A stretch of 43,867 bases of DNA, taken from the NCBI GenBank assembly GCA_009783445.1, contig WRFY01000112.1, forward strand, positions 1 to 43,867, read 5' to 3'. Shown in pieces: positions 5,814-20,750 of this stretch; position 1 is the first letter of the stretch; each line of letters begins with the position of its first letter. The DNA is from Candidatus Azobacteroides sp. (GTDB lineage: Bacteria > Bacteroidota > Bacteroidia > Bacteroidales > Azobacteroidaceae). The notes under the pieces are model-generated. The model saw only the letters and a program-made list of their open reading frames with translations. It searched no databases and was not told the origin of the DNA. The translations under genes and the position numbers were made by a program.

Positions 5814-6347
5814 TTAGTATAAACGAACATCCTGCTTCGAGGGTGTAATGATCACGACGTCTCCGATCTTTACTTTTTTTACCAATTCTTTCAGATCTTT
5901 ATTTCTCAATCGGATGCAACCTTCGGTAGCTCGCGTTCCAATAGATTCATCGTCAACCGTACCGTGTATGCCGATGCCTTGATGACCCGGCGTGAACAAT
6001 CGAATGAAAAAGGGACCGTACGCACCTTGTACACTCCCTCTGCCATCGCCAAAATCGTGTTTCCATTCCGAAGCATTTTGAATATCGCAAATGGGAAAAA
6101 TGCCTTCCGGCGTTTTCATATCGCCCTGAATCGTTTTGTTGCCCATGCTTTTGCCGCACGCTACTGGATATTGACCGATGATCTTCCCCGTGTAATTGTA
6201 AATAGTTAATGTCATATCTTCTTTGGATACGACAACAAATGATGAATGTTCGATCTTTGTTATGCGGTGCTCATACCAGCGCCATACGCCGAACAAGCCT
6301 GCATAAGGAAGCAACAATACCACCCAAAGCGCTATCTTCTTTTTCAT
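5814..6347 (-). CDS. L,D-transpeptidase (YkuD domain), membrane-anchored
   Basis: 177 residues with an uncleaved N-terminal signal anchor (about 5-23) and an extracytoplasmic YkuD domain (about 35-168). The catalytic signature is visible as HGT at 128-130 followed by TEGCIRL, with nucleophile C144 and R146. The more usual SHGC is TEGC here, a variant seen in the family. Such enzymes make 3-3 peptidoglycan cross-links or attach proteins to the wall. It is the last gene of the ten-gene minus-strand operon, 10 bp after the Cys-rich secreted protein gene, so it is likely the wall-acting end of that system. No transport or lysozyme domain is attached. Confidence 0.9.
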   Translation of the reverse strand: MKKKIALWVVLLLPYAGLFGVWRWYEHRITKIEHSSFVVVSKEDMTLTIYNYTGKIIGQYPVACGKSMGNKTIQGDMKTPEGIFPICDIQNASEWKHDFGDGRGSVQGAYGPFFIRLFTPGHQGIGIHGTVDDESIGTRATEGCIRLRNKDLKELVKKVKIGDVVIITPSKQDVRLY

Positions 6348-6357
6348 CTATTGATCG

Positions 6358-7392
6358 TTATTTCCACCAATCCTCCCACTGAACCTTATATTCATTTTGA
6401 CCTCTTTCTTTCGTTTTTTCATCGAAACTAAACATATCAATTAAATAACCCCAACCTTTGGAACGGTATTTTTCATCGGGAATTAAATCGGGTCCATCGC
6501 TAACGTTAAAACCGGCAGGAAAACACGCCCGATAATCGCTCCAACAAGCTTTTTTCGATGCTCCTGTGCGGTAGCTTTTCCATGTCCCGTCGAAAAGGAC
6601 GGTATAAGGAGATGCCGTGTACCAAATCTCAGCAATGGCCATTTTGCCGGTATTGTCTGTCCAGTAGATTTCGAATGTTCCCTCAAAAACGCCTGTGCCC
6701 GACTGTTTCTTATCTTCGGCCAAATTATATTTTCCTATTATTTTGCCGTCGGCATTATTTCCGTCCCAGTTTTCCAACCCCGATTCTACAACGTATTGCG
6801 CTTCGATAATTCCTTTAAAATCACAGATATTATTTTTGACTTTCGATTTTCCGATTACTTCATATTTATGATCGTCTATTCTTTTGGTCGATAAAAAAAC
6901 AATTCCCATTCGTTGAACTTCATCGCCTAACATTCCGAGGAATTCTTTTTCAGATCCGAATAACTTTGCGATGTCAATATCTTCCACTTTGGGCAGTTTT
7001 TGGGCTATTTTTATATCGGGATAAAACGGCGCGGTGCAAGGGTCGCAATCCAATCCCAGCGCTTTGCCAACACAATAAGCTTTTTTCCCAAGCAAATAAT
7101 GAACATACGCCAAATCTAAATTATAGTTCTTTGTTGAGCCTTTATTATCTGTGCCGTCAACATAAACTTCGTAAAAATTTTCGTAACCAGTATATTTATA
7201 ACCTACATTTGAAACAGTAATGAACTGTTGCGCCTCATTGTTGCAACAAGTGCACCAAAGAATAAGCTGTTTTTGTGTATTTAAAAATTCGACCGCTTCT
7301 ATTGCTTGCGATTCACTTAAATAGGCTAATTGATCGGCTCTACAGACGAATGCCGGTAATAACAGGATTAAAAGATACAAACTTCTTTTCAT
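6358..7392 (-). CDS. Secreted Cys-rich protein of unknown function
   Basis: 344 residues with a clear signal peptide (about 1-19, LLILLLPAFVCRA). I do not recognise the family. Two parts can be seen. The first (about 25-135) carries several cysteines, in LWCTCC (46-50) and in AYCVGKALGLDCDPC, which could form disulfides or bind metal. The second (about 140-300) is rich in beta strands, with a GTGVFEGTFEIYW segment and further cysteines. The protein ends in an aromatic QWEDWWK. It sits between the zinc-ribbon/SH3 protein and the L,D-transpeptidase in the ten-gene operon, so a periplasmic accessory role is the best inference. Residue positions are approximate. Confidence 0.75.
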   Translation of the reverse strand: MKRSLYLLILLLPAFVCRADQLAYLSESQAIEAVEFLNTQKQLILWCTCCNNEAQQFITVSNVGYKYTGYENFYEVYVDGTDNKGSTKNYNLDLAYVHYLLGKKAYCVGKALGLDCDPCTAPFYPDIKIAQKLPKVEDIDIAKLFGSEKEFLGMLGDEVQRMGIVFLSTKRIDDHKYEVIGKSKVKNNICDFKGIIEAQYVVESGLENWDGNNADGKIIGKYNLAEDKKQSGTGVFEGTFEIYWTDNTGKMAIAEIWYTASPYTVLFDGTWKSYRTGASKKACWSDYRACFPAGFNVSDGPDLIPDEKYRSKGWGYLIDMFSFDEKTKERGQNEYKVQWEDWWK

Positions 7393-7446
7393 GTGTTTCT
7401 TATTTGATGTTTTTTTGATTTATTTTTAAAAAAGTATTTGTTCGTT

Positions 7447-8469
7447 TTAGCGGTATTCTATTTGATAGCTGTATGCGTCAGCGTCAAAAGACATGTAATA
7501 CACAGGCTTGATAGCGTAAATATCCCCCGTTGGCGGCGCCGCTTCTTCATATTCCAAATGCGGCGTTTCATCGTCATTAAAACTGAATAACAAAAATTTC
7601 CGTTCTTTTGTAATGGTGTTTTTTAAAATTACTGCGAAATCGGCAAACTTTGAATTTGAATTGATAATTTTCTTGTAATAGGTTGAATTGTATTTCGAAT
7701 TTTTGCTTTTGGAAAATACCTGCCAAATTCCGTTATCGTACCCATTCCTTTTTATATAATAGAGCAACGCTAATCGATATCTTCCTTTGTCGATTATTTC
7801 TTTCGATTCATTGTCGCCCCAAATGCTGTTCAGCAGAGAAAAATCGAATGGAAGTAATATATAATTCGACGACACGAATCCTTTTTGCCTTTTCCATTTT
7901 ACTTCCGACCATTCGGAACCGTAATCATATACGATTAACTCGGAACCGTAAGGCACTTTTCCCACTATATTGTAATCCACTCCCGACACCGGCGAAGAAC
8001 GCAAGAAAACATTGGTGGCGAATGTATAATAGCGAGGGGCGTCTCTATCGGTTATATAGGGAAGATAAAAACCATAGTACCCAATGGCGCCGCCCGCGCC
8101 CAGCAATAGAATGATTCCAACAATCAGTACCGCCCATGGAAATGATTTGGACTTTTCTTCCCGTTTCGGTTGTTTTCCTTTTTCGGGTTGTTGGTTTATT
8201 CTTTCTGGCCGTTGATCTACTCTTTTCGGTTGTATATCTATTGTTTGAGCTTGTGCCGGAATGTTGATTGCTGGTTGTATCGCTTTTTTTTCCTGTTCAT
8301 TCGACAATGCCTTTTTCAACAATTGAATCGTTTCTTTTGCATCGCTTAACTCGTCATGGAGTTTATCTATTTTATCCAATTCTTCGTTTTCGACCAGCGG
8401 GGTTCGGCAATACATACAATAATTTGCGCTGCTTGGATTTTCTTTCTGACATTGAGGACACTGTTTCAT
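7447..8469 (-). CDS. Zinc ribbon - coiled coil - TM - SH3-like protein
   Basis: 340 residues in an unusual order. An N-terminal zinc ribbon has cysteine pairs C4/C7 and C18/C21. It is followed by a short coiled coil (about 30-62), a Pro/Lys/Gln-rich linker, one transmembrane helix (about 111-134), an SH3-like domain (about 145-207; NVFLRSSP and KGFVSSNYI are typical of bacterial SH3) and a C-terminal region of unknown fold to residue 340. With no signal peptide, the ribbon should be cytoplasmic and the SH3 part periplasmic. Bacterial SH3 domains often bind peptidoglycan, so this protein could link a cytoplasmic complex to the wall. It is the eighth gene of the operon. Partners are inferred only from position. 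Confidence 0.8.
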   Translation of the reverse strand: MKQCPQCQKENPSSANYCMYCRTPLVENEELDKIDKLHDELSDAKETIQLLKKALSNEQEKKAIQPAINIPAQAQTIDIQPKRVDQRPERINQQPEKGKQPKREEKSKSFPWAVLIVGIILLLGAGGAIGYYGFYLPYITDRDAPRYYTFATNVFLRSSPVSGVDYNIVGKVPYGSELIVYDYGSEWSEVKWKRQKGFVSSNYILLPFDFSLLNSIWGDNESKEIIDKGRYRLALLYYIKRNGYDNGIWQVFSKSKNSKYNSTYYKKIINSNSKFADFAVILKNTITKERKFLLFSFNDDETPHLEYEEAAPPTGDIYAIKPVYYMSFDADAYSYQIEYR

Positions 8470-8510
8470 ACCGTTTTTTTTAAGAATTTATTTGCAATAC
8501 AATAAAAATT

Positions 8511-9041
8511 CTATTTGAAAGTGATTTCATTTTTATGATAGTTGATCGATATTTCTCCAAATTCTTCCAATACAGATTGACCCAACAACAAAGGCGCTTC
8601 CATATTATCCACAATAGAAGCCTGAATGTTGAATAGTTTTTTGTTTCCTATTTCTACTTTTCGAAGCATCACCACTTTCCCTTCGAGGACACTTCCGTCG
8701 GCGACCTGATATTGCTGCGTACCTAAAAAATCGTCATCTTTTAGTTTTCCTTGTTTATAGAGAAAGAGGGCTTCAGTGAGCGACATGGTAATATCCGAAG
8801 CGCCGGTATCGAAAATAAATTCCATTTCGGTACCGTTTATTTTGCAGGGAATATGGTATACGCCGTCTTCTTTCCTCATTTTGATGATTGTTTTGCCTCT
8901 TTGGTTAGCCGATCGGCGATTTTCGGATATCTCTGTTGGAGTCGGCCTCCTGTTGGAGGGTCGACTGTTTCTCCGTTTACAGGACAACATCGGCATCAGG
9001 AGAAAAAACAGGAGTGAAAAGATGAAAATTTTTTGTTTCAT
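8511..9041 (-). CDS. Retropepsin-like aspartic protease, lipoprotein
   Basis: 176 residues. A lipoprotein signal ends at C21 (LMPMLSC), followed by a basic, low-complexity linker (22-50) and a single retropepsin-like domain (about 52-176). The active-site triad is FDTGASD with D78. The second typical element, LLLGQSVLEEFG, lies near residue 150. Such clan AA proteases act as homodimers, so one copy of the D-T-G motif is expected. The lipid anchor places it in the periplasm, probably on a membrane. It lies in the ten-gene operon after two paralogous membrane proteins, which are plausible substrates because both have periplasmic segments. That substrate link is inference. Confidence 0.85.
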   Translation of the reverse strand: MKQKIFIFSLLFFLLMPMLSCKRRNSRPSNRRPTPTEISENRRSANQRGKTIIKMRKEDGVYHIPCKINGTEMEFIFDTGASDITMSLTEALFLYKQGKLKDDDFLGTQQYQVADGSVLEGKVVMLRKVEIGNKKLFNIQASIVDNMEAPLLLGQSVLEEFGEISINYHKNEITFK

Positions 9042-9068
9042 GACTGTATTTTATTTTCTAATGCATGG

Positions 9069-10562
9069 CTATACAATTTTAATTTTTGCTTTTTGAATAA
9101 CTTTCCATTTCCCGTCAACTTGTTGTTGAGCTATGCCTTCCTCCACTTCGAGGTGTTGCCCGCGGGGAAAGATTTGTTTTTCGCAACCGGCCAGATTGCT
9201 TGGACGGTCGATGACTCGGCGATATGCTCCTTTGTAAATAGCAAATAAGGCTGTCGAAGTATCGCGGAGCTTCAGTTCATAGATGGTTTCATCGGCAGGC
9301 TGCTGGCGAATATTATAAAAAGTTCCCTCAGTAATATCTATCGCATCGGCATACAGCGTATTTACTTCTGCTGTTTGATTGACGATGTTCGTTTTTACTG
9401 GTTCAACGATGCTCGTATCCTTTTTATTATTTTTTATTTGCTGTTTCAAGTCCTCCCGCAATTCCTGAAGATCGAGCCGCGTTATTTTAACGATCGCATC
9501 AATGATCTCTGTTTTATCGTTTTCATTTAACACAAAAGATTGCGATTGCAGCGTCGTTATTCGATTCGATAAATCCGTTATATTTTTTTCAATGCTTCTT
9601 TGCCATTTCTCTAAATCGGTATTATCAAAGCTTGGAGTTACCGGTTCTTTTATTTTTAAATCTCGTTGTCTATAAGAAGAAGAAAATGCCTTTTTTGTAC
9701 GGCGATAAATAATAATCATGCCTCGAAGGATGCGTCTGTAATGCCTTTTGAAAACAATAAATAAGCCTGCGATAAAAGCAACGAATAATAGCCAATACAT
9801 CCATCGTAGACTCGATGCTTCTTCTACTGTTATTTGACATCGGTCGGTTTTGCCATCTATGCGGGCTTCAATAGTGCATTTGCCTGCATCGGAAGCTTTT
9901 ATTTCAATGTCTTTTCCATTGTCTGATTTCTTTACGATGCTTACCTTATTGTTTCCTTCGATCACTTTCCAGTCAATCTTTTTATTTTTGATTTCAGCAT
10001 CGCTGGGATCTATTTTTATAGAAAGCTTTGACGTTTTTCCCACTTTCAAAGAGAGTAGGGTTTTGTTAAGGGATATTTGTTCTATTTTTTTTTCTTGGAA
10101 AATATCCTGATTATTCAAATCCTCTTTTAACGCTTTCGTCACTTTTGAAAAATAAGACTGAAAATCAACTGGTTCGGTAGGTAAAGCGACTAATTTATCT
10201 ATTATTTCAATGGTATTCCAATTCGGATCAAATTTTTCTTTTTTACTTTCGATAAAATTGATCAACAACTCTCCTTTGGGATATTCTTTTAAATCTTGCA
10301 ATAGCAAAACATTATCTGCGGCATTTTTAAGGTTTAAATTTGAAAGCTGCGGCTTAATTCTGGTTTTGTAATCCTCTCTAAGCGTCGAAGACATAGCCGT
10401 ATCAGATTTATCAGCCGTTTTCTTGTCAAAATACCGTTTTGTATAATAACAATTCACATAATCCACTAAATTTTTAAAATCTTCTTCGCTGATATTCCGC
10501 GTAGCGTTGCTTACGCTGTACAGCATAATCAATGATAAGAAAATAACTATCTTTTTCGTCAT
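9069..10562 (-). CDS. Membrane-spanning Ig-like/coiled-coil protein with shared C-terminal domain
   Basis: 497 residues: signal peptide (1-20), helical periplasmic region (about 25-155), bacterial Ig-like BIG2 domain (about 162-247; SLNKTLLSLKVGKTSKL is typical), TM helix (about 253-271) followed by a basic stop-transfer segment, coiled coil (about 313-380), and a C-terminal domain (403-497). That last domain is clearly homologous to residues 190-283 of the protein encoded just upstream; both carry YADAI, VIDRP and LAGCEK. The topology predicts an Ig-like part outside and the shared domain in the cytoplasm. The gene starts 4 bp after the upstream paralogue's stop, suggesting coupled translation and a heteromeric complex. 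Function unknown. Confidence 0.8.
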   Translation of the reverse strand: MTKKIVIFLSLIMLYSVSNATRNISEEDFKNLVDYVNCYYTKRYFDKKTADKSDTAMSSTLREDYKTRIKPQLSNLNLKNAADNVLLLQDLKEYPKGELLINFIESKKEKFDPNWNTIEIIDKLVALPTEPVDFQSYFSKVTKALKEDLNNQDIFQEKKIEQISLNKTLLSLKVGKTSKLSIKIDPSDAEIKNKKIDWKVIEGNNKVSIVKKSDNGKDIEIKASDAGKCTIEARIDGKTDRCQITVEEASSLRWMYWLLFVAFIAGLFIVFKRHYRRILRGMIIIYRRTKKAFSSSYRQRDLKIKEPVTPSFDNTDLEKWQRSIEKNITDLSNRITTLQSQSFVLNENDKTEIIDAIVKITRLDLQELREDLKQQIKNNKKDTSIVEPVKTNIVNQTAEVNTLYADAIDITEGTFYNIRQQPADETIYELKLRDTSTALFAIYKGAYRRVIDRPSNLAGCEKQIFPRGQHLEVEEGIAQQQVDGKWKVIQKAKIKIV

Positions 10563-10566
10563 TTTA

Positions 10567-11418
10567 CTAAATAATTTTTACTTTTAAGGGTTTATCAATG
10601 ATCCATCTTTCGCCCGATTTATGAGCTTCGCCCAGCGCGATTGTTTCCAACGATTTATTGCCTATTACTTCTTTTTCACAACCTGCAAGGTAGTTTGGCC
10701 GATCGATTACACGCTTTTCCGCTCTGGAATAAACCTTGAAAGTAGCGGATAGGGAAAGCGTGTCGGGGAGTTCCAATTCGAAGACCGACATATCGCCCGG
10801 TTGTTGACTCAGGTTGTAAAATTCGCCGTCGTTTATGGCATCGGCATAAAGATTCGCCTTCAGAAGCGTTGAGGATTGCAATGCCGAATGCTCCGCTGTA
10901 GTCTGCGCCTGTTTAGTGGGCAAAGGCGCTTTCGATTCCAATTGTTGCTTTAGCCGTTTGCACACTGCCCTAAGTTTATCGTTTTCTTCTTCTATTGCTT
11001 TAAGATACTGTAGCTTGCTTTCCAATCCGATTCTTTCGCTGCGGAAATATTCGTTTTGGTCTTTCAACTCCCGTATGTGCTTGTTCGTTTTGGAAAGTTG
11101 TTTTTTCGCTTTTAATTTGTTATAAATCAATAAATATATCAACCCGCCTACCGATACGAGCAAAACTCCAAAAATAATAAAAAAGAGCGTCGAATATTCT
11201 ATCAGCCAATCCAATTGATTTATATTTGTATCTCCAGACCTTGAAATGGGTTTGCCGTTGATGCTGTCCGGAGAAGTCGGCTTTTCCATTATAGAAAGCG
11301 TATCCTCCCCTGCAAGAAACCGAATGGTATCTTGTACTTCATTTTTTGAAATATTTTGAGCCTTCATCATGGTTGCCCCCATTATAATGGCCGCCCATAG
11401 TATAACCTTTTTTCTCAT
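10567..11418 (-). CDS. Membrane-spanning coiled-coil protein with shared C-terminal domain
   Basis: 283 residues: signal peptide (1-20), short periplasmic stretch (21-70), one TM helix (about 77-98), a strong cytoplasmic coiled coil (about 100-165), a linker, and a C-terminal domain (190-283). That domain is shared with the downstream neighbour; FYNLSQQPGDMSVFELELPD here pairs with FYNIRQQPADETIYELKLRD there. It lacks the Ig-like domain of its paralogue. Its position right after the Hsp70/actin-like gene suggests that the shared domain contacts one of the two cytoplasmic NTPases. I do not recognise a named family for this domain. Operon member six of ten. Confidence 0.8.
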   Translation of the reverse strand: MRKKVILWAAIIMGATMMKAQNISKNEVQDTIRFLAGEDTLSIMEKPTSPDSINGKPISRSGDTNINQLDWLIEYSTLFFIIFGVLLVSVGGLIYLLIYNKLKAKKQLSKTNKHIRELKDQNEYFRSERIGLESKLQYLKAIEEENDKLRAVCKRLKQQLESKAPLPTKQAQTTAEHSALQSSTLLKANLYADAINDGEFYNLSQQPGDMSVFELELPDTLSLSATFKVYSRAEKRVIDRPNYLAGCEKEVIGNKSLETIALGEAHKSGERWIIDKPLKVKII

Positions 11419-11458
11419 ATATTCAATCCAATAAAAAAATTCATCATTACGTTAATCT

Positions 11459-14400
11459 CTATACCTTTCGAGCCATTTCATGCAAAACTCCGACTAAGGG
11501 ATAGAAAAACAAGGTTTCACTTATTGCTTCGTCGTCTTCTAAACTCTTCTGCTTCCAGTCCAAACCATCTTTGAGCGATTGTTCCAATTCTATTTTGTCT
11601 ATACAAATCTCTTTTACTTTTCTCAAAATGCTTGATTCGGCAGTCAGCTTATTGGTGAAGAAATTATTGTTGTCTTCATGCAGTTTAAAAAGAAATTCCA
11701 CAAATTCGCTTACTTGCTTTACTACATTTTCTTTTATTTCGTTTGTTAACTCGGAATATTTGATTGTTTGATTTGCATAGTAGTCGAAATGATCGCCGAT
11801 AAAAGTATATTTTATTCCCTCAATACTGTCGTACGCCTGTTTAACCGGTTCCAGAATTCCGCCTTTGCACGTCGCTTTTTTAGGGTTTTCCTCCATAATG
11901 ACCGTCAGTTTACCGCTATTGTCGTTGTAAACGCCATCGAAAATTAATTTAGCAAACCGAGCGATCATCTCAACATCGCCCGACAGTGCATAGAGGGTTT
12001 TAGAGCCATTGCCGCTGAACGCTAACGTCAGCGGTTTTTTCAATTGTTTTGCTTTCATGGATTTAGCAATGAAATACAAAATAGCGCCGTAAAACACGGT
12101 AAACACATAACGCAAGCGGTCGTTGGCCGACAATTGTTCTAGAAAATTCAAGGCTTCATTGCCGTTCACTTCTTTGTTCCCTATCAATGAAAAAAAGAAT
12201 GCGACAATATCGGGCGATTTCTTTTTTCGTTCGATTTCTTTTAAAACGCTTTCCAATTTTTCCAATCCATTGGCACGCAATACCCTTGCAAATTGATCCT
12301 TGTATTGCCGCACAAAACCATTGTTGTCGGAATTCCAATTATAAGCGTCTCCAAAAAGCGCTTCAGAAGCAAAGCGGAACGAGAGCAACATTTTCGGCAA
12401 TCGATCTTCCACTACATATACATCGGTTGTACTTCCGCCCACATCAATGGTCACAACTTCCCTCTGCGCACCTTGCGTCCTACTGTAATATTGGTAAGGC
12501 GCTGCCGATTCGGAAATAGAGATCACATTGGCGTTTGCTTCGCCTCCAAAATATTCTCCATACAAACTATTCCATATACTGTTGAATCGGTTGACCCGCC
12601 CTTCATCCATGCTGGCTGGATAGAACCAGATAATTTTCGTAGCTTCCAGATTTCCGTCGTTTAATAAGACTTTATTGCGCATCAACAAAAACAGATTTTC
12701 CAGATACAAACGCACCAATTTATTTGGAACGGCATTCCATTTCAATCCTGTTTTCAATTCATTGTATTTGGGAAAAGCGTCTTTTTCGTAAAGGAAAGGC
12801 ACATTCCCGTCGACTAATGCATAAGGCGTTTTGTCGTAATCAATGCCGGAATATTCGGCAAAAGCCGTACGCATGGGGAAAGTATATTGCGTATTTTCAG
12901 CAATTAAATCTGGAATAAAATTGTGATCAAAAGCCGCTTCAATATCGGGATTGAAGAAAGTGCTGTGCAATTTGTGCAACTGTCTTTCATTGGCAAGGAT
13001 ATTAAAAGTTTCTGGGCTGCTTTGATCTAAAGAATATTCGATGTGCGTATTCGTAGTGCCGAAATCAATGGCAAATGTAAATTGCTTCCGTGCATGATGC
13101 GTCGAAAATTTAGGGATAAGCGCTCCTTTGACGTTGCCCACCTGAACGCTTATCCGATCGAAATTATCGTGAACGGCATAAGCTTCAATGCTGCTTTTCG
13201 CATTTTCCATATCTTTCTTGTCCCTTATGCAGTGCGCTTGTTCGGCTATACTTCTATTTCCATCGAAACAAGTCAATTTTATATTCCGGACTCCTGTACT
13301 TTTCGTATCGAGATCGAACAAGGCAATGCGGTAACGTTTATTTACTTTTTCAGGGAAACGCACCAAAGGCATAATGCCCAGACCGAACGTTTTATTCATC
13401 AAATAGCCGTCGTTGTATTCCGGGTCTGCCAAAACGCCTTCAAAGTAGGTGCGCCGATAGGTAATAGAGGCATTGTTCTGGATTGGAATACGCAAGATAA
13501 CCGTAATGCCTGCGGCATTGTCTTCCAATTCAAACATTTTTTTTCCGTCTTTCAATAGGCCTTGTAATTGTTCGACCGTAAAAAATTGGAAAAATAAATC
13601 GGTTAAGGGCAACAAAAAACCAAAATTTTTACCTTTTTCATCACCGGATTTGGGAAGATTTCCATCGAAAAAACTTTCGCTATTGACTTTGTAAGGCATT
13701 CGCACGATTGTATCTTCCAGAAAATCGCCGATGGTGAGGTAAGGATATTTCGATTCGTCTTTAGGCAAAGTCCTTTCCTGTAAAGGACGCGGGTCGCAAT
13801 ACGGAACTCGGGTGTCTTTATCCCATTTATCTTTGACATAAATAGTAGGGTAGGTATAAGTGTTCACCGGCAATACCAACGGAGCAAGATCGTTGATGGT
13901 ATAAGGAGAATCAATGACAAAACCGCTCTTGTTTTGTATATCAACAGGCTTTTGTATCCATTTCTTTAAGGTGAGGCCTTCGATTACCTGCACCGTATGT
14001 TCTGCGTCGTTGACTGTTATATCGGCGTACTCGTTTCCATCCATATCCGACGCATTCAAAGCTCGAATCGCGGCTTGCTCTTTAGGAGCTAACTTTTTGA
14101 AATTTTCGTTTAAATACTCATTGACTTCTTTAAATAATTCAGGAAATTCCTTGTATTTTTTTTGCAACAAATACCAGTATTTCTGATATTCCAAATCTCT
14201 TCTATACAGAGGACAGTAGTTTTTGTCAAAAGAATGATCGTTACCAAAACAGATCACATCCGACACATAACTCAAGTCGTTCGCCGAAGTAAAAAACAAC
14301 GTTGCGGGCGAAGTTGCTCCTATGATATTGATTTTGGCCGGTCCTTCAATAAAATTCAAAAAGTACATTTGCTGCATTTTATCGAAATTATATGCCTTTC

Positions 14401-14803
14401 CGTCTTGTTTCAAATAAAGGTCATAAGTTCGACCCAATTGTTGATGTTCGGGATGGGAAGAATTCAACAATTCTTGCAAATCGTTTTCTTTGTCCCAACA
14501 TATTATTTCGATTTTATTTTTGTACTTGTCCATGTTAAAAAAGATTTGCCCTACATCAAAACAGTCGGATACCATTTTGTGGTGAATGCTGTCGCCGTCT
14601 ATTCCCAATTTGAGTACTTTTTTAAAAGCGGTCTTCAATAAATCGATTCTTGCAAAAGGCGAAGGAATAGAGGTAATTTCGCTTTTGGGCGAACTTTCTG
14701 CCATTTCTTCCATCACTTTCGAACTGTATTTGGTCGTAGCATCACCCTGCCAACCGCTACAGTTGCCCACTCCTTGCTTATGTAATCTGAATATATAGCT
14801 CAT
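11459..14803 (-). CDS. Large protein with Hsp70/actin-type ATPase core
   Basis: 1114 residues. The ATPase core of the actin/Hsp70/sugar-kinase fold lies in the C-terminal half. Phosphate-1 loop is DFGTTNT (580-586), phosphate-2 is DVGGSTTDVYV (787-797), and the adenosine motif is SGNGSKT (930-936). The first 570 residues have no motif I recognise, and about 165 residues follow the core. No signal peptide or TM helix is seen, so it should be cytoplasmic. It starts 6 bp after the tubulin-like gene, implying coupled expression. Large Hsp70-like proteins of the SrfB type are a possible relative by size, but I cannot confirm this. Polymerisation or chaperone activity is equally possible. Confidence 0.85.
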   Translation of the reverse strand: MSYIFRLHKQGVGNCSGWQGDATTKYSSKVMEEMAESSPKSEITSIPSPFARIDLLKTAFKKVLKLGIDGDSIHHKMVSDCFDVGQIFFNMDKYKNKIEIICWDKENDLQELLNSSHPEHQQLGRTYDLYLKQDGKAYNFDKMQQMYFLNFIEGPAKINIIGATSPATLFFTSANDLSYVSDVICFGNDHSFDKNYCPLYRRDLEYQKYWYLLQKKYKEFPELFKEVNEYLNENFKKLAPKEQAAIRALNASDMDGNEYADITVNDAEHTVQVIEGLTLKKWIQKPVDIQNKSGFVIDSPYTINDLAPLVLPVNTYTYPTIYVKDKWDKDTRVPYCDPRPLQERTLPKDESKYPYLTIGDFLEDTIVRMPYKVNSESFFDGNLPKSGDEKGKNFGFLLPLTDLFFQFFTVEQLQGLLKDGKKMFELEDNAAGITVILRIPIQNNASITYRRTYFEGVLADPEYNDGYLMNKTFGLGIMPLVRFPEKVNKRYRIALFDLDTKSTGVRNIKLTCFDGNRSIAEQAHCIRDKKDMENAKSSIEAYAVHDNFDRISVQVGNVKGALIPKFSTHHARKQFTFAIDFGTTNTHIEYSLDQSSPETFNILANERQLHKLHSTFFNPDIEAAFDHNFIPDLIAENTQYTFPMRTAFAEYSGIDYDKTPYALVDGNVPFLYEKDAFPKYNELKTGLKWNAVPNKLVRLYLENLFLLMRNKVLLNDGNLEATKIIWFYPASMDEGRVNRFNSIWNSLYGEYFGGEANANVISISESAAPYQYYSRTQGAQREVVTIDVGGSTTDVYVVEDRLPKMLLSFRFASEALFGDAYNWNSDNNGFVRQYKDQFARVLRANGLEKLESVLKEIERKKKSPDIVAFFFSLIGNKEVNGNEALNFLEQLSANDRLRYVFTVFYGAILYFIAKSMKAKQLKKPLTLAFSGNGSKTLYALSGDVEMIARFAKLIFDGVYNDNSGKLTVIMEENPKKATCKGGILEPVKQAYDSIEGIKYTFIGDHFDYYANQTIKYSELTNEIKENVVKQVSEFVEFLFKLHEDNNNFFTNKLTAESSILRKVKEICIDKIELEQSLKDGLDWKQKSLEDDEAISETLFFYPLVGVLHEMARKV

Positions 14804-14809
14804 GTTTTT

Positions 14810-16258
14810 TTACAATCTGAATTTTGATTTAACTAATTTGTCTGTCGCCTGGTAAAAAAGTTCCAGAAAACTATGCAATACTTTGGAATCGTTGTCTTTT
14901 ATCTTGGCTTGCATATCATTTAACGTGTCGTTGAATAAGTCGTAATTCGATTTGAGACTCATTACTTTGGCGGGCGATTCACCTTTTATCAGCGCAAACA
15001 CATCTTTCTTAGCGTTCAGATCGTAAGGAGAAAAGGCGCGTGAGTTGGAACTCATTTCGGAGAGCCATTCGAGGTACGCATTTTTCACGCCTGTCAAATC
15101 TGATTGAAAATATTGTCCTTTGATAAAATTATCGTCAAACTTATGATTTTTTGCCCACGGTTGATACCGATACGAATTGCTTATCTGCTCGTTCAGGTAT
15201 TTGCAAAACAGCAGAAATTGCGTCATTGGTTTTTTTATCGTCTGATTGGTTATTTGGCACAAATCATTGAACAGGATGGATTTCGATTCCCTTTCGATTC
15301 CAAATTCTTTATAAGTCGTATTTTTCACATTGCCGTCTACTGTTTGAAAACTACTATCCGGTTGTGAAGCAAAATCAACGATTGCTAAAGCTGCCGCTAA
15401 TTCTACAAAATGCGCTTCGTTGCGTTGCGTATCGCCTCCTTCCGAATTTTCGTAATGCTTTGTTATACTGTCGGCTATGTAATAAAGCGAATTAACTTCA
15501 GTCAGATTCGTGTCGTAATACGATAATGCCGCTTTTGCTTTGGAAATAAAAGTGGTAGAATCGATTTCGCTATCTTCTTTGTATTTTACGTCGAAGTACG
15601 GCAATACGGTAACCGCGCCAATCGGCACATTGCGCACCAAGTCGTTTTCTCCTTTATTTTTCGATTTTCGGAGTTCTTTGACCAGAAGCGGGAACCCGCT
15701 CGCGCCTGTTCCGCCAAAAATGGAACTGACTACAAAAACCCGATCGCCTTGTTTTACGGAACTTTCAAAAGCTTTGTACTCGTCGGAAAACGAAAATTGA
15801 TTCAGTACCACGCTGCCGATATTGGGATTGCCTTTGAACCCCACTTCCATAGTAGATTCCAGATTTTTTTCGGAAAATAACATCGAAACCAATGCATGAT
15901 TGGCATTTTCATTGCCTTTTTCATCCACCATCCACGACAAGCCGATGTAATCCTTGAATTTTACATCTTTTGTGTTTTGCACGGGAATTCGTCCCGAAGG
16001 AACAATATCCATATTGATTTTTGTATTGAAAAAACCGTTTTTGGAGGCATTGTCCACATCAATACTGTTGCGTACTTTTACATAATCCTGCATCAATTTT
16101 ATAGTACGGGTTAAATCTGCAGCCGCCAGATCGGGGTCAATAATAATCGGCGCCACTTCGTCGGCATTTATTTTTACGCCGGCAGCCATCAATAGGGTAA
16201 GCGATTTCAATACGCGCGCCCCTGTTCCCCCTATTCCGAATACATATAATTTACTCAT
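14810..16258 (-). CDS. Tubulin/FtsZ-like GTPase (Tubulin_2-like)
   Basis: 482 residues. The N-terminal glycine-rich loop GIGGTGARV (8-16) matches the first nucleotide-binding loop of FtsZ/tubulin proteins. The diagnostic signature loop appears as FGGTGASG (181-188) after a hydrophobic strand (VFVVSS), close to the FtsZ form GGGTGTG. A later AIVDFA segment (about 293-298) could be the T7-like catalytic loop, although the usual asparagine is missing. About 180 C-terminal residues are divergent. No membrane segment is seen. This is not FtsZ itself: length and sequence differ, and no cell-division genes are nearby. It is operon member three, immediately before the Hsp70/actin-like gene. Confidence 0.85.
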   Translation of the reverse strand: MSKLYVFGIGGTGARVLKSLTLLMAAGVKINADEVAPIIIDPDLAAADLTRTIKLMQDYVKVRNSIDVDNASKNGFFNTKINMDIVPSGRIPVQNTKDVKFKDYIGLSWMVDEKGNENANHALVSMLFSEKNLESTMEVGFKGNPNIGSVVLNQFSFSDEYKAFESSVKQGDRVFVVSSIFGGTGASGFPLLVKELRKSKNKGENDLVRNVPIGAVTVLPYFDVKYKEDSEIDSTTFISKAKAALSYYDTNLTEVNSLYYIADSITKHYENSEGGDTQRNEAHFVELAAALAIVDFASQPDSSFQTVDGNVKNTTYKEFGIERESKSILFNDLCQITNQTIKKPMTQFLLFCKYLNEQISNSYRYQPWAKNHKFDDNFIKGQYFQSDLTGVKNAYLEWLSEMSSNSRAFSPYDLNAKKDVFALIKGESPAKVMSLKSNYDLFNDTLNDMQAKIKDNDSKVLHSFLELFYQATDKLVKSKFRL

Positions 16259-16281
16259 ATCTTTATATCAATGATGAATGA

Positions 16282-16695
16282 TCAAAAAGGCGTACGACTT
16301 GCATTTCGACTCTTCCATTTGATGCCTATTGAAAAAGCAAATGAAAAAACAAATGTCCACAAGGCATTGGCCATTGAAAAAGAGATAAATTCCATAGCCG
16401 AAAACGGCGAGTCCTGATTTTGTTCTGCATACATACTATCAATTGCATCGTTCGCTCTGAAATAAGCAATGCCGAAATTGATTAGGCAAACAACCAAAAC
16501 CATCAATAACCAATGATACCATCTGTTAAATCGCGGATGATTGATCAGATAATAATAGACTATCATCCCTATTAACGATAGCAATACCATGCACCAGCCT
16601 ACTGGAACGTACACGGCTTCCGAATTGTACAGTTCATTTGCAAGGTCAGTCTGACCGGTGATTAATTCATACAAATTGGCAAAGAGATCATTCAT
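16282..16695 (-). CDS. Small membrane protein, about three TM helices
   Basis: 137 residues with hydrophobic helices at roughly 29-50, 60-79 and 105-125, and a basic C-terminus (KWKSRNASR). No known domain is recognised. It lies between the vWA lipoprotein and the tubulin-like gene with gaps of about 20 bp on both sides, so it is very likely part of the same operon. A membrane anchor or docking site for the cytoplasmic NTPases is the simplest inference. The start is the ATG that gives MNDLF. Confidence 0.7.
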   Translation of the reverse strand: MNDLFANLYELITGQTDLANELYNSEAVYVPVGWCMVLLSLIGMIVYYYLINHPRFNRWYHWLLMVLVVCLINFGIAYFRANDAIDSMYAEQNQDSPFSAMEFISFSMANALWTFVFSFAFSIGIKWKSRNASRTPF

Positions 16696-16714
16696 GTTTT
16701 TTTCTTTAGGTTAA

Positions 16715-18058
16715 TTATTTTATTGATATGGAACATTCAAAAAAGTGATTGTCGTCTGGATAGATGATTTTATAAGCCTCTTCTATCCCTGCAACCCAAT
16801 ACTTAAGACCAAAAGTTTGGCCGACTAACCGACTTTCGGTTGTATCGTCTTCGGTACTGCTGTCGTTCACCCATTGGGGTATTTGTTTTTTCAACACGAA
16901 CGACACATTGGAAACTGATTTGGTTTTCGCCTCCAATACAATGATATGAGTGGGATTGTGGGAATTGATGATTCTCCAATCATTGGGCTTGATTTCGTTT
17001 TTACTCGCAGGAATAATTTCGGTGATGTCGAAATTGTCAGTCGTCACGATATAATTGGCTGGATTCGTGAGATAGTCATTCTCTGCCTGAATAGAACTGA
17101 AATCGACGGCGACGGCAAAAGTCAATAAATTATTTTTGTTGTCCAATTTGACATCTCGTATGCCGTGAACATAATCTTTGGCGCTTGCCGTGCGATCCGG
17201 TTTGAATCGTCCCTGGCTAAACGAAGAAAGCAAAACCGAATAATAGATATTTTTCGGATCTTCGAACGATAGCACATATTTATTTTCGAAACCTTCTATT
17301 TTATTCTCTTTCAATTCGATATTTTTATTAAAATCGGCAAGAAGATCCGGATCCGCCATAATACATATATAATACGGTCGTTCCATATTGATCATAAATC
17401 CTTTATTATCTCCCGTATAGGGATAATATTTTCCATTGAATTTCGATTTCATTTTTACAATGGTGGTTGCTAATTTTATCTGGTCGTTTTTCCATTTGCT
17501 CAAGAAAGCGTCTTTCGTCAAACTTTTTTCATCGTTCAATAATTCGACTGTATTCGACGAACCGTGAATGGAATAAATACAGTCGGAAAATAAAATAGAA
17601 ATCGTATGATTATCTGTTTGTTTCAATATCATTTTGAATATTTGGTTCAAATTGGTACTTAGCCAATCTTTCTTTTCCTGCCCCTTCCTCCAAATGACCT
17701 CAATATCCTGAGAAAAAGCGGCCAAATCCTTTTTTGTATCGGATTCTTTGATTCCATTATTGATGAAAAATACTTTAATGCTATCTTCATTGTAATGATA
17801 TTTGAGTAATACCAGCAAATCGCGAATAGCTCCTTTGAACTCGGTTTTACCCTTTACATAGCCGTCCATACTGCCGGAGTTCTCTATGTACACATGGATA
17901 TTGGGAACAACGCGCGGGACGGTGTCTACAGGAACAGGATTTTCAATCTCTGTTTCCCTTGCAGGTTTTCGTTCCCCTCTTCGTTCGCAGCTCCAAAAAA
18001 ATATGCCAATTACCACAAGCAACATATATAATGCGCTTTGTTTTCTGGTTTTTTTCAT
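16715..18058 (-). CDS. von Willebrand A-like lipoprotein
   Basis: 447 residues and first gene of the ten-gene operon. A lipoprotein signal ends at C24 (FFWSC), then a Pro/Glu linker, then a vWA-like domain from about residue 52. The metal-site motif reads ENSGS (59-63) in place of the usual DxSxS; a conserved-looking threonine lies at about 135 and SDC at 158-160, consistent with a MIDAS-like site. Residues beyond about 270 form a beta-rich region with no recognised domain. The lipid anchor places it outside the cytoplasm. vWA proteins often bind proteins through a metal ion, so it may be the extracytoplasmic sensor or scaffold of the system. The first acidic residue being E rather than D leaves metal binding uncertain. 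Confidence 0.8.
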   Translation of the reverse strand: MKKTRKQSALYMLLVVIGIFFWSCERRGERKPARETEIENPVPVDTVPRVVPNIHVYIENSGSMDGYVKGKTEFKGAIRDLLVLLKYHYNEDSIKVFFINNGIKESDTKKDLAAFSQDIEVIWRKGQEKKDWLSTNLNQIFKMILKQTDNHTISILFSDCIYSIHGSSNTVELLNDEKSLTKDAFLSKWKNDQIKLATTIVKMKSKFNGKYYPYTGDNKGFMINMERPYYICIMADPDLLADFNKNIELKENKIEGFENKYVLSFEDPKNIYYSVLLSSFSQGRFKPDRTASAKDYVHGIRDVKLDNKNNLLTFAVAVDFSSIQAENDYLTNPANYIVTTDNFDITEIIPASKNEIKPNDWRIINSHNPTHIIVLEAKTKSVSNVSFVLKKQIPQWVNDSSTEDDTTESRLVGQTFGLKYWVAGIEEAYKIIYPDDNHFFECSISIK

Positions 18059-18108
18059 AATAATTATATTCGTTATTTTGTATTATTTTTCCCTTGAACT
18101 ACATTAGG

Positions 18109-18116
18109 CAAAATTA
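18109..18116 (-). promoter_or_regulatory. -7 box for the ten-gene operon
   Basis: The minus strand reads TAATTTTG, a full match to TAnnTTTG, about 50 nt upstream of the vWA gene ATG. No good -33 TTTG was found at normal spacing. I saw no equivalent box in the gaps I checked inside the operon, supporting a single long transcript. Confidence 0.5.
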
Positions 18117-18203
18117 AATATAATTTCTGAAATAGAAATAAAAAAAATGTCAAAGATGTTTACAGGAAAAGAATGATTTCTTTGCGCTTCTTTTGCTATC
18201 AGC

Positions 18204-19691
18204 TTATTTTTTTTTGAAATTGGATGATATTTCTTTCAAAGAAAAATCTCTTTTCAACAAAATAAATACATAAATGCCTATTAAGATTGTATTCCATCCG
18301 AGATGTCCCATTGTATGGCGAACTGGGATCAAACACGACAGCAGATATAAAACGCCTGCCAGCAACGTGTACAAGCCAATGGTTTTCAAATCGTAACGTA
18401 CAAAATAATACTTTTGTCCAATAAAATAGGAAAGAATCATCATCAATCCATTGCCGGCAAAAGCAGCCCAGGCGCAAGCCCAGTAACTGTATATCGGAAT
18501 AAAAAAGATATTGATGCCAATGATTACTACAAAAGCAATGAACGACAAGATGGTTCCCCAATAGGTTTTGTCCATCAATTTATACCAAATCGAAAGATTG
18601 AAAGAAACCGCAAAAAATAGTTCGCCCATCAATACGATCGGTACAATCTGCAAGGCTCCAAAATAATTGGGACTGATAAAATATTTAATAATGTCCAGAT
18701 AAAACACAACTCCCAGGAAAACAAATAATCCGAAAATAATAAAATATTTCATCACATCGGCATACGATTGTTTGGCATTTTTCTCTTTGCTTTTTTCAAA
18801 AACAAAAGGCTCGTAGGCGTAACGGAAAGCTTGCGTAAACATCATCATAATCATGCCTATCTTGAAACAGGCGCTGTAAATGCCTAATTCGCTGAGCATG
18901 GTGGACGAATCGGGATAGACGGCCGGAAATACGATTTTATCTACTACTTGATTGCTCATTCCAGCTAATCCCATGATTACTAAAGGGAAACAATATTTGA
19001 GCATTTTCTTAGCCAAAGCGCCGTCGAACCGGTATTTAAATCCGGTCAGCTCGGGTATCAGAAACGCCGTCTCGATTCCCGTCGCCAACAAATTGGATAT
19101 GAATACATAACCTAAACGGAAATCGTCTCTCCAAAACCAGTCAATCAGAGCTGGATGATGCTTGTTGATCCAGGGACATACTACGAGGAAAAAGAGGCAC
19201 AAAAGCGTATAAAGAATCACATTCAGTATTTTCAATGCCCCAAATTTCTTCGCTTTTTTCTTGTAACGCAAATAAGCAAAAGGAACCGCGCTGAAAGCAT
19301 CCATGCTTAAAATAATGATTACCAGACGAATATACGTATCCGGTATCATAGAACTCCATAAGTACGGACGTATTTGCGGAAGAAATCCCAAAAAGACCAG
19401 CAAGAAAAATGCCACAAAACTGCTGACCAAAAGGATGGTTGTGGAGTAGACCGTAGCCGGCTGATATTGGTCGTTTTGATTGGCAAAGCGGAAAAATCCC
19501 GTTTCCATTCCAAAAGTAAGAACCACTATAATCAATGCCACATAAGCATATAAGTTGGTCATCATTCCGAAATCTTCCCTTGTTAAGGTATAGGTAAAAA
19601 GCGTAGTCAACAACCAACTGACCATTTTTACCAAAATGGTACTTCCTCCATATACTACGCTATCTTTTGCCAATGATTTTGTGCCTGCCAT
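18204..19691 (-). CDS. Polysaccharide flippase (Wzx/MurJ-like MOP superfamily)
   Basis: 495 residues, almost entirely transmembrane helices (12-14 predicted), with the family-like N-terminus SLAKDSVVYGGSTILVKMVSW and LTREDFGMMTNLYAY. Such proteins flip lipid-linked oligosaccharides across the inner membrane for O-antigen, capsule or related glycans. The start is placed at ATG 19691 (MAGTKS); the longer ORF begins at a TTG 15 nt upstream. It lies 30 bp after ruvB, an arrangement I recall from other Bacteroidales, so it likely shares the ruvB transcript. No glycosyltransferases lie nearby, so the substrate is unknown. Confidence 0.85.
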   Translation of the reverse strand: MAGTKSLAKDSVVYGGSTILVKMVSWLLTTLFTYTLTREDFGMMTNLYAYVALIIVVLTFGMETGFFRFANQNDQYQPATVYSTTILLVSSFVAFFLLVFLGFLPQIRPYLWSSMIPDTYIRLVIIILSMDAFSAVPFAYLRYKKKAKKFGALKILNVILYTLLCLFFLVVCPWINKHHPALIDWFWRDDFRLGYVFISNLLATGIETAFLIPELTGFKYRFDGALAKKMLKYCFPLVIMGLAGMSNQVVDKIVFPAVYPDSSTMLSELGIYSACFKIGMIMMMFTQAFRYAYEPFVFEKSKEKNAKQSYADVMKYFIIFGLFVFLGVVFYLDIIKYFISPNYFGALQIVPIVLMGELFFAVSFNLSIWYKLMDKTYWGTILSFIAFVVIIGINIFFIPIYSYWACAWAAFAGNGLMMILSYFIGQKYYFVRYDLKTIGLYTLLAGVLYLLSCLIPVRHTMGHLGWNTILIGIYVFILLKRDFSLKEISSNFKKK

Positions 19692-19721
19692 AACGAAGCG
19701 CTGCAAACGTATATAATTATT

Positions 19722-20750
19722 TTATAATTCGTTAAACAGAAATCCAGCTTGTCCGCCGGGTTTTCGTCCCAAATGCGAATAGGCCAGAGGAGTTACTTCC
19801 CGTCCGCGCGGAGTCCGTTTCAAGAATCCTTCCTTGATCAGGAACGGTTCGTAAACTTCTTCAATTGTACCCGCATCTTCACCCAAAGCGGTAGCAATGG
19901 TGGTCAAACCAACAGGACCTCCCTCAAATTTGTCGATGATTGTCAACAAAATTTTGTTGTCGATTTCATCCAATCCATATTTATCAATGTTTAGCGCTTC
20001 CAAAGCAAAACAAGTAATTGCTTTTTCGATTTTACCCGGACCTTTTACTTGTGCAAAATCGCGGACTCGCCTTAGCAGAGCATTGCAAATACGGGGAGTT
20101 CCTCGACTTCGCGAAGCAATCTCGACAGCCGCATCTTCCTCGCAAGGAATATTCAGAATCGACGCCGAACGCTTCACGATAGCGGCCAGCGTTTCCATGT
20201 CGTAATACTCCAAATGCAAATTGATTCCAAATCGCGCCCGTAAAGGCGAAGTCAACAAACCGCTCCGCGTAGTAGCGCCTACCAACGTAAATGGTTCCAA
20301 GTCGATTTGGATGGAACGGGCGCTCGGACCTTTGTCTATCATAATATCGATTCGGTAATCTTCCATAGCCGAATAGAGGTATTCTTCTACTACCGGACTC
20401 AAACGGTGAATTTCGTCGATGAAAAGTACATCGTTTCGCTCCAGCGAAGTCAGCACTCCCGCTAAATCGCCGGGTTTATCCAAAACCGGACCGGAAGTAA
20501 TTTTAAATCCCACGTTCAGTTCGTTGGCTATGATATTGGAAAGCGTTGTTTTTCCTAATCCGGGAGGACCGTGCAACAAAACATGATCCAATGCTTCTGC
20601 CCGCATTTTAGCCGCCTGAACAAAAATTTTCAAGTTTTCAACAATCTTTTCCTGACCGCTGAAACTCTTGAACGACAAGGGCCGTAAAGCATTCTCGAAT
20701 TCTTTTTCTTTTTCGTTCAATTGGTTCGAACGTATATCGTATTTATCCAT
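19722..20750 (-). CDS. ruvB: Holliday junction branch migration helicase RuvB
   Basis: 342 residues, a normal RuvB length. RuvB forms the hexameric AAA+ motor that, with RuvA, drives branch migration during recombinational repair. Walker A GPPGLGKT is at 61-68, Walker B with DEIHR at 112-116, and the [18 protein letters not shown] segment with the sensor and arginine-finger residues follows. The C-terminal winged-helix DNA-binding part ends with [17 protein letters not shown]. The gene starts 2 bp after the upp stop codon, so translation is probably coupled. ruvA and ruvC are not in the window. Confidence 0.98.

Follow-up and report, generated by a model that had tools for sequence, protein, structure and literature searches.

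The window analysed here is a 43,867-nucleotide stretch of Candidatus Azobacteroides sp. (contig WRFY01000112.1, assembly GCA_009783445.1), in which ten minus-strand genes run from position 18058 to 5814 with intergenic gaps of 4-54 nt and encode, among other products, a tubulin-like GTPase next to an actin/Hsp70-like ATPase. Comparison with related loci revealed that these two nucleoside triphosphatases (NTPases) form a constant pair (80 of 80 loci), mostly encoded beside a Zorya-related motor pair where the available sequence suffices to judge. We hold it to be about an even chance that the window operon belongs, without the usual motor, to a patchy, horizontally moved kind of cassette that would serve as an accessory, envelope-spanning NTPase machine for envelope surveillance or conflict. 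To our knowledge, few cases are known in which cytoskeletal NTPases of the tubulin and actin types are constantly encoded as a pair.

The paired NTPases and the conserved core

Fold comparison supported both the tubulin-type and the actin/Hsp70-type assignments of the original prediction. The tubulin-like protein has an FtsZ-type GTPase fold with a glycine-rich T4 loop and scored 26.1 bits against PF13809 (Tubulin_2), just below the cut-off of 27; PF13809 was matched at E<=0.01 by 56 of 60 family members. Pfam detected neither FtsZ_C nor Tubulin_C in this protein, the model of which is mostly helical past residue 335. The actin-like protein displayed an actin-type ATPase fold with phosphate-1, phosphate-2 and catalytic Glu motifs. 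Its fold matches were restricted to about residues 571-994, residues 1021-1113 are mostly helical, no match to the Pfam HSP70 family was obtained, and the fold search was uninformative for residues 1-570, which is not evidence of a new fold. The catalytic motifs of both proteins are retained. A tubulin-alignment scan of named genomes confirmed at least 563 relatives, and the locus counts given here refer to the best 80 of these at least 563; every one of the 80 loci held a blastp homologue of the actin-like protein, encoded directly after the tubulin gene except in L110, where a 106-amino-acid (aa) open reading frame (ORF) lies between them, and split in L060 and L114. The pairing was looser in a separate sample of 395 genomes of the phylum, where 14 had a tubulin match at E<=1e-3 and 10 of these 14 an actin-like match at E<=1e-6. 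We regard the two folds and their pairing as solid. The genes of the window operon, called with a simple ORF caller rather than taken from an annotation, are as follows (TM, predicted transmembrane segment).

18059..18203, minus strand: AT-rich intergenic stretch, presumed promoter region from the sequence read
16715..18058, minus strand: vWA-like lipoprotein, 447 aa, first core gene, with an E-N-S-G-S motif resembling a metal ion-dependent adhesion site (MIDAS)
16282..16695, minus strand: small multi-pass membrane protein, 137 aa, two predicted TM (relatives mostly two to three)
14810..16258, minus strand: FtsZl1/Tubulin_2-type GTPase, 482 aa
11459..14803, minus strand: actin/Hsp70-fold ATPase, 1114 aa, with a large N-terminal region (1-570)
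10567..11418, minus strand: TMa, single-pass adaptor, 283 aa, TM at 80, coiled coil and shared C-terminal domain (topology read from the sequence)
9069..10562, minus strand: TMb, 497 aa, Ig-like (Big_2, 1.9e-5) region, one TM at 252, coiled coil and shared C-terminal domain
8511..9041, minus strand: retropepsin-like aspartic protease lipoprotein, 176 aa (PF13975, 7e-16)
7447..8469, minus strand: zinc ribbon-coiled coil-TM-SH3_3 protein, 340 aa, accessory (family and TM scans)
6358..7392, minus strand: Cys-rich exported protein, 344 aa, accessory
5814..6347, minus strand: TM-anchored L,D-transpeptidase (YkuD), 177 aa, accessory (PF03734, 3.5e-20)

The membrane adaptors and periplasm-facing parts that had been proposed were likewise supported, with TMa and TMb having their C-terminal domain in common (E 1e-20). 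Conservation of the ten genes as one unit, which had also been anticipated, did not hold. Besides the actin-like protein, blastp recovered homologues of the vWA-like protein in 76 of the 80 loci and of the small membrane protein in 65, in the same order as in the window; the protease lipoprotein was found in 19 loci, TMb in 14 and TMa in 9, and the accessory genes were rarely shared (zinc ribbon/SH3 protein 2/80, L,D-transpeptidase 1/80, Cys-rich protein 0/80). The core therefore comprises four genes, encoding the vWA-like, small membrane, tubulin-like and actin-like proteins. TMb-related proteins come after the actin-like gene in many loci, and a faster-evolving adaptor gene sits behind the core. 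In the vWA-like family, Cys24 is nearly invariant in the alignment (A8; 39 of 74 proteins plus the window), and both the MIDAS-like motif and the gene position are conserved. The remaining alignments comprised 59 of the 80 tubulins plus the window (A6), 49 of the 74 long actin-like proteins plus the window (A7), 18 of 49 MotB-like proteins (A4) and 15 of 53 MotA-like proteins (A5). Bacteroidota is the label of 75 of the 80 loci, the others being L042, L067, L075, L076 and L102; among these, L042, L067 and L102 adjoin Bacteroidota rows on the tubulin tree and may reflect contamination.

A putative motor pair in relatives and its absence from the window genome

Clustering of the genes downstream of the core yielded two families that the window operon is without, one MotA/ExbB-like and one MotB/OmpA-type. 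Motor presence was judged only where the contig extended at least 4.5 kb past the actin-like gene, as in 64 of the 80 loci; contigs that end sooner, such as that of L014, are no evidence of motor loss. A MotA-like protein was defined as a cluster member with at least three predicted TM. On this basis, the 64 loci comprised 51 with a MotA-like gene, 45 with a MotB-like gene and 44 with both. The MotA/ExbB-like proteins have three to four predicted TM and a PlYlGL.GTm.Gi stretch. In the MotB-like proteins, F10, W11, S13, D16, M18 and T19 of the N-terminus are invariant in 18 of 18 sequences and the end is OmpA-like; MotB_plug scored 24.3 bits in L062 (cut-off 24) and 15.5 in L036, and OmpA reached 3e-4, below its cut-off, in the L062 protein. 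ZorB models were matched by all five MotB-like proteins scanned (best E 8e-16 to 1e-11), and ZorA2 by one of four MotA-like proteins (8e-8). When the MotB-like profile was compared with the PDB, the top chains were 8vvn (MotB-related, 9e-13) and 8qyd (2e-7), the latter of which we take to be ZorB. Among the 395 genomes of the phylum, MotB-like proteins occurred in five, all within the 14 tubulin-bearing genomes and on the same contig as the tubulin; a hypergeometric test of the tubulin list (E<=1e-3) against the MotB-like list (E<=1e-10) gave p 2.6e-8, a value that ignores kinship, three of the five genomes sharing a genus. Comparison across loci thus shows a cassette made of the four-gene core and its usual followers, which by their sequences are a predicted bitopic adaptor, a putative MotA/ExbB-type and ZorB-like MotB/OmpA-type pair and, often, a candidate protease lipoprotein.

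The window genome, which holds two cassettes, returned no match to the MotB-like or MotA-like profile at E<=10, where the MotB-like profile recovered its five control genomes (5/5, each of which had contributed rows to the profile) and the MotA-like profile had no control. The window operon is therefore read as a motor-less derivative. On the tubulin tree, motor-bearing operons occupy many branches, and the motor-less rows include the window, its second copy and the long-contig rows of Spirosoma and Prevotellaceae (four each), a pattern that fits several losses. Direct membership of the window operon in Zorya was ruled out, there being no ZorA/ZorB-type motor by profiles at E<=10. Within the window's genus, a 212-aa gene behind a TMa/TMb-type gene (L015, genome G029, 1810-2448) gave a match to the MotA-like profile (6e-11); the genus thus contains either the remnant of a motor or a motor gene that has been split. 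Two contigs filed as viral (L116, 8305-16911; L117, 8309-16911) encode vWA, small TM, tubulin, actin-like, MotA-like and MotB-like proteins consecutively, and are probably host or mobile-element DNA. One further cassette (L109, 17714-20906) contains a tandem pair of MotB-like genes together with an extra 5-TM protein.

The lack of a motor, together with broken or split copies elsewhere (L018; G447, with stops), would also be expected if the operon were a decaying or neutral relic that lost its motor and gathered its accessory genes by chance. All ten ORFs are open, however, neither NTPase has lost its catalytic motifs, and a single genome of 2.7 Mb retains two diverged cassettes, whose tubulins are 66% identical, which renders this explanation very improbable. 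The second cassette (L013, contig C116, 397-12646) has no motor pair and encodes vWA, small TM, tubulin, actin-like, TMb and zinc ribbon-TM proteins, followed by a 4-TM protein, a zinc ribbon/TM protein and a secreted protein. In another locus of the same genus (L018, 2082-5749), the genes for the tubulin and the actin-like protein are either split or truncated, and a vWA-like piece lies in the tubulin frame; this cassette is apparently decaying.

Patchy distribution and mobility

A tubulin match was present in 7 of 58 relatives, the window's own genome included, one of them (G027) being a weak partial match. For an empty-site comparison, we used 29 flippase loci of relatives in the genus, from 33 matching genomes (window site 18204-20750); in the window, a 145-nt AT-rich gap separates the flippase gene from the first cassette gene, which encodes the vWA-like protein. 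RuvB adjoins the flippase in 18 of the 29 loci. The cassette vWA gene was next to the flippase in 0 of 29, and the gene that flanks the other end of the cassette was located within about 1.5 kb in 0 of 30 loci, which shows patchiness and no insertion boundary. Six plasmid records contained a tubulin match, one of them a 1.8-Mb Prevotella record, and no tubulin match was obtained in phage records. Both cyanobacterial plasmid cassettes that were inspected encode a vWA-profile match, a 3-TM protein, a tubulin and an actin-like protein, with the vWA gene on the opposite strand in one (L120). A distant cassette (L118, 4941-18869) has a relaxase and a tyrosine integrase ahead of it and, behind it, a TPR protein and a series of small repeated genes; its first protein has no vWA profile match. 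A TerD reading of these small genes was dropped, as the two that were scanned had no Pfam match.

Relation to described systems

Operons of FtsZl1 with vWA and OmpA proteins were predicted to remodel membranes by Makarova and Koonin in 2010 (PMC2875224). As far as the accessible part of that paper describes them, they share with the window family a divergent N-terminal FtsZ domain, a mostly helical C-terminal domain, a vWA neighbour (vWA-like by motif in the window family) and a patchy spread; an OmpA-family gene is a neighbour in several genomes, and Bacteroides caccae is among the species (PMC2875224). No OmpA-family neighbour was found in the window operon (by Pfam) or in the window genome (by the MotB-like profile). 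The main text of the paper, in its accessible part, leaves Hsp70, MotA, MotB and any actin-type partner unmentioned; its emphasis is on a P-loop GTPase and on protein kinases, neither of which has a Pfam match in the ten window proteins (PMC2875224). In Synechocystis, a set of three genes has been studied, as the available portion of the report describes, in which Sll0445 contains a Tubulin_2, Sll0446 an FtsA and Sll0447 a DivIC domain, with impaired phototaxis in mutants and putative interactions with pilus proteins (PMC9880817). This set resembles the window family in having Tubulin_2 beside an actin-type (FtsA) ATPase and a DivIC protein, and differs in that no motor or protease is described in that portion (PMC9880817). 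The original prediction that the combination was undescribed thus has to be narrowed, given the tubulin-like, vWA and OmpA association of 2010 and the Tubulin_2, FtsA-like and DivIC set (PMC2875224, PMC9880817; both in the parts accessible). In the open literature searched, no description of the combination of tubulin-like, actin-like and motor proteins was found among the matches listed.

The Synechocystis set also suggests that the family could be a surface-structure or motility machine, in which the NTPases would organise pili, gliding or a secretion apparatus and the motor and proteases would serve assembly or maturation. The single phenotype found, phototaxis, favours this, as do the Tubulin_2, FtsA and DivIC calls (all below Pfam cut-offs) that the two cyanobacterial plasmid relatives jointly provide, the listing of sll0443-sll0449 as a transcription unit (PMC2633013, in the part available) and the inclusion of Sll0445 and Sll0446 among proteins under LexA or SyCRP1/2 control (PMC12313861, likewise). 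The rare and patchy spread (14 of 395 phylum genomes) and the plasmid copies argue against it, no pilus or gliding family appeared among the window and relatives' proteins scanned, and Sll0445-Sll0447 are likened to the window family by description, not by their own sequences. We therefore place a motility role on the unlikely side, while treating it as a serious possibility.

Zorya contains a 5:2 ZorAB motor, according to the portion of the structural report available (PMC11890865). Its likeness to the cassette is confined to the relatives, in which the MotB/OmpA-type proteins match ZorB (5/5) and the MotA-type proteins ZorA2 (1/4); the cassettes differ in their tubulin- and actin-type partners, and the window copy in being motor-less. 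No match to ZorC/ZorD, ZorE or ZorF/G was detected in the ten window proteins and ten proteins of relatives, the other accessory genes being unscanned. Tubulin and HSP70 themes also feature in conflict systems for which a prediction appeared in 2020 (PMC7159879). In the accessible part of that work, the DO-GTPase/GAP1-N2 systems share a tubulin + vWA theme and an HSP70/DnaJ theme with the cassettes and include membrane-located zinc-ribbon GTPases that carry TM and SH3 domains; the themes are non-overlapping there, whereas a tubulin and an actin/Hsp70 fold occur together in 80 of 80 loci here (PMC7159879). None of the ten window proteins matched a P-loop GTPase family at Pfam E<=1, and neither a DO-GTPase nor a GAP1 was recognised, in a library whose coverage of DO-GTPase/GAP1 is unchecked.

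An anti-phage, Zorya-like system, in which a peptidoglycan-anchored motor would sense injection and the NTPases with an exported nuclease or protease would form the effector, would account for the resemblance of the motor pair to ZorB (and once to ZorA), the SNase-like proteins, the protease lipoproteins and the mobility, and would agree with the conflict systems predicted around tubulin, vWA or HSP70 (PMC7159879, in the part available). Such a role is unlikely in our view: scans of the ten window proteins and of ten proteins from relatives gave no ZorC/D/E-type match, the window genome has a motor in neither of its cassettes, and the comparison of neighbouring genes with PADLOC families gave no decisive difference from the control. 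A bolder formulation, in which the cassettes would be envelope immune machines with a peptidoglycan-anchored, ion-driven stator wired to tubulin/actin-type assemblies, with a protease or nuclease as exported effector, the motor being dropped and a nucleotide-switched peptidoglycan tether kept in the window lineage, appears fairly unlikely to us.

Proposed function

Under the accessory-machine reading that we prefer, the GTPase and the ATPase would form a nucleotide-controlled cytoplasmic assembly, possibly by polymerisation, which the C-terminal domain common to the bitopic adaptors would dock at the inner membrane. The parts in the periplasm (Ig-like region, vWA, protease) may sense the state of the envelope or alter it. 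Where relatives have the motor, an ion-driven stator anchored in peptidoglycan could power or trigger the assembly, as proposed for ZorAB; the window lineage might instead make its peptidoglycan contact through the SH3 protein and the L,D-transpeptidase. The role would be that of an accessory envelope-surveillance or conflict system, not that of housekeeping division machinery; the generation of force at the envelope may be a further function. The motor pair of the relatives, with its peptidoglycan-binding type, strengthens the proposed coupling of the cytoplasm to the envelope, a part of the original prediction that stands, unlike the ten-gene machine to which it was attached.

Several observations weigh against this reading. 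The window copy has no motor, and so the motor explanation is not directly applicable to it. The identity of the MotA-like family appears weaker than that of the MotB-like family: Pfam MotA_ExbB was matched below cut-off in two of three proteins scanned (3e-4 and 1e-3), two of the other MotA-like proteins match ZorA or other models weakly through a coiled coil, and no MotA, ExbB or ZorA chain was among the best 60 of 111 PDB matches of the MotA-like profile. The window vWA-like protein had no significant match to vWA hidden Markov models. The best-80 set is biased towards close kin of the query, and 4 of the 14 tubulin-bearing phylum genomes were without an actin-like match at 1e-6 (G447, which has stops, G272, with a weak match, and G241 and G341). 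NTPase activity, polymerisation and interactions are predictions from sequence. With respect to defence, none of the window proteins had a PADLOC match better than 0.009, and 119 proteins upstream of the cassette matched 44 PADLOC families at E<=1e-15 against 21 for 116 proteins from sampled genome stretches, a difference that is not decisive because the models are redundant and there is no per-protein count. The one phenotype found for a comparable gene set, the impaired phototaxis of Synechocystis mutants, gives no indication of defence (PMC9880817, in the part available).

With these loci, FtsZl1, the function of which was only predicted in 2010, gains a concrete partner set and a testable energy source, and the natural motor-bearing and motor-less variants allow one to ask what the motor contributes.

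Variable genes and individual loci

The protease slot is represented by one cluster in 37 of the 80 loci, retropepsin-like by motif in 13 of the 37, trypsin-like in 19 (Trypsin_2, 6.7e-20 in one) and unassigned in 5. SNase-like proteins number nine in 8 of the 80 loci (Pfam 5.6e-22 in L055), and DnaJ proteins are variable extras in two loci. An exact Bacteroidetes-type promoter was not found in the 145-nt gap ahead of the first window gene, and promoter and terminator scans of the window gave results at chance level. In L035, an L,D-transpeptidase also adjoins the zinc ribbon/SH3 gene. In L119 (9995-20999), a distant tubulin adjoins both an actin-like protein of 1491 aa and a distinct Hsp70-type protein (HSP70, 2e-30); a resolvase lies close by.

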